From assembly GCA_937934595.1 (NCBI GenBank), contig CALGZA010000043.1, forward strand, positions 1 to 64,000: a DNA stretch of 64,000 nt, in the 5' to 3' direction. The stretch comes from an uncultured Verrucomicrobiales bacterium (GTDB lineage Bacteria; Verrucomicrobiota; Verrucomicrobiia; Verrucomicrobiales; Akkermansiaceae). The notes beneath the pieces were generated by a model. It was not told where the DNA came from. It searched no databases and worked only from the letters and a program-made list of their open reading frames with translations. Made by a program: the position numbers and the translations under genes. Of the stretch, positions 23,309 through 26,765 are shown one piece after another; the stretch's first letter is position 1, and every line of letters begins with the position of its first letter.

Positions 23309-24391
23309 ATGCTAGAGAATCACTTTTACGAACACGTCGACGCTTACCTAAATATGGCTGTGGAGTATGATGCTTCAGACATCCACTTGTCCACAGGAGC
23401 CCCGCCTACTTGGCGAAGACACGGAAAATTAATGCCTATATGGGAAAACACAGCGGCCTTAACAGCTGACCAACTGGATATTCTCGTAGCTTCTTTTCTC
23501 GATAAAAAAGGTTATGATTCACTAACTGCAAAAGGTGATGCTGATTATGCATATGAGAATGAAAACGCCCGTTTCAGAGCCTCAGTTGTCCGACACCGGC
23601 TAGGAAAAGGTATCGTTTTCCGCATAATTAATACTCACATAAGAACTATGGATGAACTCAATCTTCCACAAGAATTCCTAGTACCCCTTACTCGTTATCA
23701 TAATGGCTTAATCTTAATTACAGGTTCTGTCGGGTCCGGTAAATCTACTACAATGGCAGCCATGTTAGATTTTATCAACAAGGACAGGAATGACCATATA
23801 TTGACACTTGAGGATCCAGTAGAATTCGTGCATAAGTCTCAAAATTGTCACCTTACTCAGAGAGAAATCGGAGAGCATTCTGAGTCTTTCCCTAGAGCGC
23901 TCCGTGCAGCATTGCGCGAAGATCCTGATGTTATTGTTGTCGGAGAGATGCGTAATCTGGAAACGATTCAACTCGCTGTGACAGCTGCGGAGACAGGCCA
24001 CCTAGTCCTAGGTACTCTGCACACAGGAAATGCACCGAGAACCCTCGATCGAATACTCGATGTATTCCCGATCGATCAACGTGATCAAATCAGAATCATG
24101 GTAGCTGAGTCGTTGAGAGGCATCATCTCTCAACAACTACTTCCTACTGCCGATGGTAACGGCCGATGCCTAGCTCTAGAAATCTTAGTAAATACACCTG
24201 CTGTGGCCGCGACCATTCGGGATGGAAATACTTACATGTTACCAGGCATAATGCAGACTGGCAAAAACATTGGGATGACCACAATGGACGATTCTCTTAG
24301 AGAGCTATACATAAGCGGAAAAGTTACCCATGAAGAAATTCTAAAACGAGCGGAAGACCAAACTACGATGAAGCAATTCCTTCAATCATAA
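23309..24391 (+). CDS. pilT: Type IV pilus retraction-type ATPase (PilT family), first copy
   Basis: This is a 360-residue secretion/pilus ATPase. Walker A is GSVGSGKSTT (about 139-148), followed by the Asp box TLEDPVEF, Walker B DPDVIVVGEM (205-214) and the His box HLVLGTLHTG. The C-terminal segment TPAVAATIRDG and IMQTGKNIGMTTMDDSL match PilT. PilT depolymerises type IV pili to retract them, powering twitching and DNA uptake. A second paralogue starts 33 bp downstream. The pair would depend on the prepilin peptidase at 15.3 kb. Confidence 0.94.
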   Translation: MLENHFYEHVDAYLNMAVEYDASDIHLSTGAPPTWRRHGKLMPIWENTAALTADQLDILVASFLDKKGYDSLTAKGDADYAYENENARFRASVVRHRLGKGIVFRIINTHIRTMDELNLPQEFLVPLTRYHNGLILITGSVGSGKSTTMAAMLDFINKDRNDHILTLEDPVEFVHKSQNCHLTQREIGEHSESFPRALRAALREDPDVIVVGEMRNLETIQLAVTAAETGHLVLGTLHTGNAPRTLDRILDVFPIDQRDQIRIMVAESLRGIISQQLLPTADGNGRCLALEILVNTPAVAATIRDGNTYMLPGIMQTGKNIGMTTMDDSLRELYISGKVTHEEILKRAEDQTTMKQFLQS

Positions 24392-24424
24392 CTCCTCTAA
24401 TAAAAAATTAATTTTCAGAAAAAC

Positions 24425-25522
24425 ATGACTAAAAGCATTGATAGATTATTTCAAATACTCATCCAACTTGGAGGATCTGACCTTCATCTAACTGAAGGGT
24501 ACCCTCCAAAAATAAGAATTCATGGTGGCGTCTCAGCCATTGAGGGCGAGCCTATTCTTGATCGTCATACCATTGAAGATCTTCTTTCTGGTATATGTGA
24601 ACCGGCAGCATTCGAAAAATTCCTTGAAGAAGGAGACCTTGATTTTGCATATGAAATGAATCTTGAATCCCGATTCCGTTGTAACTATCTCAAACAGCAG
24701 TTTGGCCTTGGTGCTGTTTTCAGATTAATACCTACTGAAATCGCTACACTCGAACAATTAGGAATTCCAGAAGTAGTTAAAAAATTTGCAGACATACGAT
24801 CTGGACTAGTTCTAGTAACAGGTCCAACAGGATCAGGTAAATCAACAACACTGGCAGCTATAATCGACTATATTAACATCAACTATAATAAACATATAAT
24901 TACTGTCGAAGAACCTATTGAATTTGTTCACAACAATAAAGCTTGTGTCATCACTCAGCGTGAAATTCCTACACAATGTGCCTCTTTCGCAGATGGGCTC
25001 CGAGCATCTCTTCGTGAAGATGCTGAAATAGTCTTAGTTGGAGAAATGCGTGATCTTGAAACTATCTCTCTCGCATTAACTTCAGCTGAAACTGGTATGC
25101 TTGTATTCGGCACACTGCATACTAATAATGCGGTTAAAACCATCGATCGTATTATTGATGTTTTCCCAGCGGATCAGCAGGCACAAGTAAGAACTATGCT
25201 TTCAGCATCCATAAGAGGTGTTCTTGCACAATTGCTTATGAAACGATGTGATCAACCAGGAAGAATTGCGGTAAATGAAATCATGTTCACTACACCAGCT
25301 GTTTCGGCGATTATTCGTGAAGGTAAAACACAAAAACTCAATGATGTGATAACTGCTGGAGCAGAACACGGTATGCAGTTTATGGATGATTCAATCTGGG
25401 ACAAGCTTCAGCGAGGTATAGTATCTCCTCAGGAAGCCTACATGAAAGCTATCGATAAGAGCAGATTTAAAAGGTTCCTTCCTGAAGATCAAGCCAATAT
25501 AGCTAATGCAGCAGGAGGATAA
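24425..25522 (+). CDS. PilT/PilU-family ATPase, second copy
   Basis: This 365-residue paralogue of the upstream gene has all the motifs: Walker A GPTGSGKST (133-141), Asp box TVEEPIEF, Walker B-type EDAEIVLVGEM and His box GTLHTNN. It has AIIREGKT in place of the PilT C-terminal segment. Such second copies (PilU in other bacteria) assist the main retraction motor. Note EDAEIV here where the first copy has EDPDVI. Which copy is the main motor cannot be decided from sequence. Confidence 0.93.
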   Translation: MTKSIDRLFQILIQLGGSDLHLTEGYPPKIRIHGGVSAIEGEPILDRHTIEDLLSGICEPAAFEKFLEEGDLDFAYEMNLESRFRCNYLKQQFGLGAVFRLIPTEIATLEQLGIPEVVKKFADIRSGLVLVTGPTGSGKSTTLAAIIDYININYNKHIITVEEPIEFVHNNKACVITQREIPTQCASFADGLRASLREDAEIVLVGEMRDLETISLALTSAETGMLVFGTLHTNNAVKTIDRIIDVFPADQQAQVRTMLSASIRGVLAQLLMKRCDQPGRIAVNEIMFTTPAVSAIIREGKTQKLNDVITAGAEHGMQFMDDSIWDKLQRGIVSPQEAYMKAIDKSRFKRFLPEDQANIANAAGG

Positions 25523-26473: not shown

Positions 26474-26670
26474 ATGTAATCGAGAAGGCATAACTAACTT
26501 ATGCAGTAAGATCCACTCTGTTTTCGGTAGAAAGAATCTTCCCATGTATGAAGAAAAACAGTCTATGATTCATGATCTGAACAAAACTAAAAAAAATTCT
26601 AAACATAGCCAGTATCAGATACAAAATTGTGCATTATAATGCACTTTCATAAAACACTCATAATTAAACA

Positions 26671-26765
26671 TGGCGGAGAGGGAAGGAATCGAACCAACCC
26701 AGGACCATAACAGCCCCACAACGGTTTTGAAGACCGCGGCCACCACCAGGCATGCAACACTCTCC
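26671..26765 (-). tRNA. selC: tRNA-Sec (anticodon UCA)
   Basis: A 95-nt tRNA with encoded CCA. The anticodon arm is CGGT-CTTCAAA-ACCG, giving anticodon UCA for UGA. The variable arm is long, GGGGCTG-TTA-TGGTCCT, and all seven positions pair if G-U is allowed. The D-arm is compact (GCC-TGGTGGT-GGC). Length, arms and sequence line up with the E. coli selenocysteine tRNA. Departures: the 3' side between T-loop and discriminator is 12 nt rather than 13, the acceptor has a mismatch at position 7, and the T-stem has two U-U oppositions. It is either a divergent functional gene or one starting to decay. Confidence 0.85.

Follow-up and report, generated by a model that had tools for sequence, protein, structure and literature searches.

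A probable selenocysteine tRNA of the 12-layer (7/5) class in a Verrucomicrobiales bacterium

Introduction

Work on E. coli has established the 13-pair branch formed by the acceptor and T-stems as the characteristic feature that lets SelB and EF-Tu distinguish tRNASec. The window analysed here, a 64-kb stretch of DNA from an uncultured Verrucomicrobiales bacterium, holds a tRNASec gene in which the 3' strand of this branch is one nucleotide shorter and several bases are mispaired. The locus raises the question of whether such a gene encodes a functional tRNASec, a degenerating one, or a tRNA of another kind. The organism appears to be a Rubritalea-like marine bacterium congeneric with Rubritalea profundi SAORIC-165: the tRNASec of this strain (L087, genome G436) and that of G005, a genome listed in the window's genus, agree in place and E-value.

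Results and discussion

Identity and layout of the tRNASec gene

The gene (selC) lies on the minus strand at 26671–26765 and is 95 nt long including the CCA. ARAGORN calls it as tRNA-SeC(tca), the single tRNA in the window, and the Rfam tRNA-Sec model (RF01852) matches it at full length (model 1–91 of 91), scoring 57.1 bits where the gathering cut-off is 47, with an E-value of 6.4e-9. This is also the only Rfam match in the 64 kb. The tRNASec identity proposed in the first-pass annotation, which was made from the letters alone, is thus borne out, and the score extends over the whole model and not over the variable arm only. The same-strand upstream neighbour is a gene for a YHS-domain protein, and on the other side lies the gene for ribosomal protein L28. 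A terminator-like hairpin is found downstream on the same strand (26629–26644; one found in a pattern scan, with 0.1 expected). Elsewhere in the window, at 23309–25522, two adjacent genes for PilT-like twitching ATPases form a tandem pair, as judged by eye from the translation.

All parts of the tRNA are given here as minus-strand positions. The 5' strand of the acceptor stem (GGAGAG, 26760–26765) forms pairs 1–6 with 26675–26680. It is followed by U7 (26759), which is unpaired and lies opposite C66, and by G8 (26758). The D-arm (26739–26755) consists of a 6-bp stem, whose 5' strand has one nucleotide bulged, and a UGGU loop; this arrangement, 7 nt against 6 nt with a 4-nt loop, is observed in nearly all relatives. 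The anticodon arm (26719–26738) carries the anticodon UCA at 26730–26728 and has one additional nucleotide on its 3' side, comparable to the bulge at 43a in known 12-bp tRNASec. The long variable arm (GGGGCU-GUUAU-GGUCCU, 26701–26717) is completely paired if G-U is allowed, both by direct reading and in the fold. In the T-arm (GUUGG-UUCGAUU-CCUUC, 26682–26698), pair 49–65 is G-C, 50–64 and 51–63 are U·U, and two G-C pairs follow. The 3' strand from the T-loop UUCGAUU to the discriminator is CCUUCCCUCUCC (26675–26686), in which 5 nt belong to the T-stem and 7 nt to the acceptor stem. The discriminator G73 and the encoded CCA complete the gene (26671–26674). Direct reading agrees with the earlier description in every one of these respects: the UCA anticodon, the 95-nt length, the paired variable arm, the 12-nt strand, the C opposite position 7 and the two U-U oppositions in the T-stem.

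The gene shares with the E. coli-type 8/5 tRNASec (RF01852) the features by which tRNASec is recognized, namely UCA, G73, a long variable arm, a 6-bp D-stem (here with one bulge) and a 4-nt D-loop, and also the 95-nt length. It differs in that its 3' strand has one nucleotide fewer, 12 nt in place of the canonical 13 between T-loop and discriminator, and in the unpaired nucleotide 7 and the T-stem mismatches. The 7 nt from the T-stem to G73 are those of a 7/5 tRNASec, and nucleotide 7 provides the bulged or extra nucleotide that most 7/5 members have in the acceptor stem or linker. Typical members are described as having standard pairs in all 12 layers, which is a description and not a stated requirement; the window branch has ten, with U50·U64 and U51·U63 being non-standard.

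Conservation of the short branch across Verrucomicrobiales

The 12-nt 3' strand is present in all 29 complete tRNASec genes of the order, the window gene included. Other classes of the phylum have a tRNASec with 13 nt and an 8-pair acceptor stem. The layout stands above chance because it is common to all complete relatives and because five of its stem pairs have changed on both sides.

This conservation bears directly on the possibility that the tRNASec is degenerating and the organism is losing Sec, in which case the shortened 3' strand and the U-U oppositions would be damage. Such a reading would account for a branch that is one nucleotide short and has three non-Watson-Crick oppositions, and for a modest Rfam score. 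It is refuted by the 12-nt strand and U50·U64 being conserved order-wide, other stem positions having changed in a compensatory manner; moreover, selA and selB are intact and selD is of the Sec type (see below). Decay is accordingly given almost no probability and is excluded within the limits of what sequence can show. The short stem and the mispaired bases are instead, on this comparison, an inherited, clade-wide form.

A DNA pattern for the tandem U-U T-stem matched 65 stretches among approximately 85,000 species genomes, nearly all from Verrucomicrobiales. Two matches outside Verrucomicrobiota (L088 and L106) were rejected as not being tRNASec, and for three others outside the phylum (L090, L097 and L108) a tRNA-Sec match was absent from the genome. 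Low-scoring tRNA-Sec matches of 83–88 nt, for example L037 with a UGA anticodon, look like tRNASer and were also set aside; raw tallies of tRNA-Sec matches are too high for this reason.

In a tree of SelB proteins, a branch with support of 100/100 sets the 19 sequences from genomes with the 12-nt type apart from the others. This grouping is consistent with one origin followed by vertical descent. Alignment of SelB from 12- and 13-type genomes also reveals class-level differences, such as an insertion in domain 2; these are confounded by relatedness and no adaptive change is claimed.

A 7/5 branch with a probably bulged nucleotide 7

Three pairing models were compared by counting the percentage of cells paired across 24 distinct branch sequences. 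A 7/5 model with six outer pairs, nucleotide 7 bulged, a G8-C66 pair and a 5-pair T-stem gives 86.5%, compared with 79.9% for plain 7/5 pairing and 78.1% for 8/4. Within the bulged model, the five pairs with changes on both sides include 4–69 and 5–68. Among relatives, position 7 varies between U, A and C (with a single G) while position 66 hardly departs from C (a single U), and nucleotide 7 is for this reason best read as a bulge. Of the 55 distinct sequences from the order, 53 have a G8-C66 pair, as do 20 of the 24 distinct branches; the four branches in which it is broken count against the preferred model. The 5' strand of 8 nt with a 2-nt linker to the D-stem retains the spacing of an 8/5 tRNA such as that of E. 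coli.

The same branch can be drawn as 7/5 with no bulge at 7, U7 and C66 then being mismatched and the linker one nucleotide longer (type D of Santesmasses et al.). This drawing is favoured by the few relatives that lack G8-C66, having C8 (L015 and L022) or A8 (L069), and by a possible G7·U66 in L099. It sits poorly with a G8-C66 pair that is otherwise so well kept, with the free drift of position 7 and with the E. coli-like spacing of the 8-nt strand and 2-nt linker, and is regarded as a possible but less likely arrangement. A further point against the preferred reading is that the single-sequence fold favours an alternative T-arm (GGG-UU-GG/CC-UU-CCC), with a weak z-score of −0.84.

The 12-nt branch and the tRNASec-like long variable and D arms also recall the allo-tRNAs and selC-like tRNACys; the first-pass annotation had likened the short branch to allo-tRNA shapes. 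Allo-tRNAs are 8/4 or 9/3 and mostly have anticodons other than UCA (PMC7609411). If the window gene were such a serine or cysteine tRNA, acting without Sec use, pair 8–65 would be needed for 8/4; it is broken in 5 of the 24 distinct branches, whereas 49–65 (G-C, A-U or C-G) is intact in all 24. Covariation thus fixes a 5-pair T-stem and supports 7/5 with nucleotide 7 bulged, not 8/4 or 9/3. The window gene further differs from these tRNAs in lacking an A51a bulge and in having UCA and G73, and no other gene of its genome, which has the complete Sec set, scores as tRNASec above the cut-off. The allo-tRNA likeness is not supported, and this identity for the gene is very improbable.

Selenocysteine machinery and UGA decoding

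The genome from which the window derives is 95.9% complete and contains selA (510 bits), selB (301 bits) and selD (375 bits), each above its curated cut-off. Pfam confirms the SelA domain and finds GTPase, beta-barrel and winged-helix domains in SelB. The sel genes are scattered on other contigs and none lies beside the tRNASec gene. The tRNA-Sec search gave one match above the cut-off in the whole genome, and a second, 13-nt tRNASec was not found by it.

The selD gene (L047:1486–2529) has one in-frame TGA at the active site, which places Sec in the sequence SCGG-U-ASK. A 7-bp hairpin with the five-base loop AGUUC starts 25 nt past the TGA, and the 31-nt stretch containing it folds 4.4 standard deviations better than shuffled sequences (z −4.4). 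Its position and the G in its loop are those expected of a bacterial SECIS. SelD is therefore itself a predicted selenoprotein. A search for formate dehydrogenase, one of the places where the annotation had suggested looking for in-frame UGA, gave weak matches only, none with a TGA.

Because selA, selB and selD are all present and selD has an in-frame UGA with a SECIS-like hairpin, UGA very probably serves as a Sec codon in this organism. The first-pass annotation had left it that the organism reads some UGA codons as Sec or recently did so; the former part stands, and the latter is at odds with a short branch and U-U oppositions that are conserved, and stem pairs that covary, across the order. 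Among the 32 genomes with the 12-nt tRNA type, selD is above the cut-off in 31, with one in-frame TGA in 25, and a query of 39 genomes of both the 12- and the 13-nt types found selB above the cut-off in 37. One genome of the same phylum (G224, L158) has two selB-like matches, on contigs C8 and C13.

Taken with the layout, these results make it highly probable that the window gene encodes a bacterial tRNASec that is functional and belongs to the 12-layer (7/5) class. In the established bacterial pathway, tRNASec is serylated by SerRS, the serine is converted to Sec by SelA with selenophosphate from SelD, and SelB delivers the product to UGA codons followed by a SECIS. By analogy, SerRS would charge the window tRNASec with serine, SelA would convert this to Sec using selenophosphate supplied by SelD, and SelB would bring Sec-tRNASec to SECIS-bearing UGA codons, that of selD among them. 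SelA and SelB of the Verrucomicrobiales lineage would have to accept the shortened branch. The simplest history is that an 8/5 ancestor lost the one nucleotide of the 3' strand opposite position 7, which would have left nucleotide 7 bulged.

The U-U oppositions of the T-stem

Of the 55 distinct sequences from the order, 54 have U50·U64 and 47 have U·U at 51–63, where the others have G-C, G·U or C-G, although part of this set came from the pattern search that selects tandem U-U. Among the 29 relatives of the order collected without that selection, U50·U64 is found in 28. It occurs in none of the 13 tRNASec of the phylum with 13 nt, and it is also absent from the Cloacimonadota 7/5 type, in which the T-stem is fully paired (GCAGG/CCUGC). 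Two 12-nt relatives from outside the order (L058 and L065) have U50-A64 in its place.

The opposition invites a functional reading because pair 50:64, along with 7:66 and 49:65, is an EF-Tu antideterminant of E. coli tRNASec (PMC11231383). As an addition to the 7/5 assignment and not an alternative to it, U50·U64, with U51·U63, might be a lineage element that stands in for the lost length cue, either by keeping Ser- or Sec-tRNASec from EF-Tu or by marking it for SelB. Its near-fixation in the order and its absence from the 13-nt and Cloacimonadota types are compatible with such a role. However, the engineered tRNASecUx has C50:U64 alongside an improved EF-Tu affinity (PMC11231383), such that a pyrimidine mismatch at this pair need not repel EF-Tu. 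The distribution also represents one lineage and so provides no independent correlation, and the U50-A64 pair of L058 and L065 shows that some 12-type members dispense with the opposition. The role as a lineage element is therefore doubtful, and the broader proposal, that U·U at 50–64 and the bulged nucleotide 7 together replaced branch length as the signal separating SelB from EF-Tu in Verrucomicrobiales, is slightly more so. U50·U64 may aid SelB recognition, may aid EF-Tu rejection, or may be neutral.

A different mismatch is observed in 13-nt tRNASec from other lineages of the phylum (L053–L057, L059 and L061–L063), where U49 lies opposite C65 (U·C), also at an EF-Tu contact pair.

Relation to known tRNASec types

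The short branch is not new, since 12-pair (7/5) bacterial tRNASec has been published for other phyla. A Cloacimonetes type of 12-bp (7/5) tRNASec was reportedly described by Mukai et al. in 2016. Santesmasses et al. (2017; PMC5330540), whose main text does not name Verrucomicrobia, described tRNASec from several bacterial phyla in which the AT-stem has 12 bp, the acceptor region contains a bulged or extra nucleotide and a further bulge lies at 43a. The tRNASec of Aeromonas salmonicida, reported along with its SelA, also has a 12-pair branch (PMC6267555). The window tRNASec agrees with the group of Santesmasses et al. in the 12 nt from T-loop to G73, the 7-nt acceptor 3' strand, the extra or bulged nucleotide of the acceptor region, the extra nucleotide near 43a and the full sel set. 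It differs in having its bulge at 7 and not at 3a, 4a or 5a, in U50·U64 and U51·U63, and in sel genes that are scattered and form no operon; Cloacimonadota members have, besides their paired T-stem, a shorter D-arm. It is thus a new lineage variant of the known 7/5 class and not a new class. The bulge at 7 and the nearly invariant U50·U64 constitute the Verrucomicrobiales version, of which no earlier description was found.

An order with a 12-layer branch and a fixed U·U at an EF-Tu contact pair offers a natural test of how SelB reads its tRNA, and the 12-layer tRNASec, SelA and SelB sets are on offer for selenoprotein engineering. Finders of Sec tRNA that assume 13 pairs may place G73 wrongly in this clade.

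Three further families of the phylum (L067, L070 and L072) have a 12-nt tRNASec of another build, in which the T-stem is fully paired and the D-arm short. These resemble the Cloacimonadota type, and SelB from the L067 and L070 genomes lies apart from the Verrucomicrobiales type. The Verrucomicrobiales-type tRNASec also occurs in two records under other names, Akkermansia muciniphila MAG AH-24oct19-279 (L121) and Planctomycetota JA3.bin7 (L113), which are possibly mislabelled or mixed bins. Finally, second or 5'-truncated copies of the 3' half of tRNASec, from the anticodon loop to CCA, are observed at L093, L095, L101, L105/L140 and L089/L120. They lie either close to the full gene or away from it, and are such as would be left by mobile elements integrating into the tRNASec gene.
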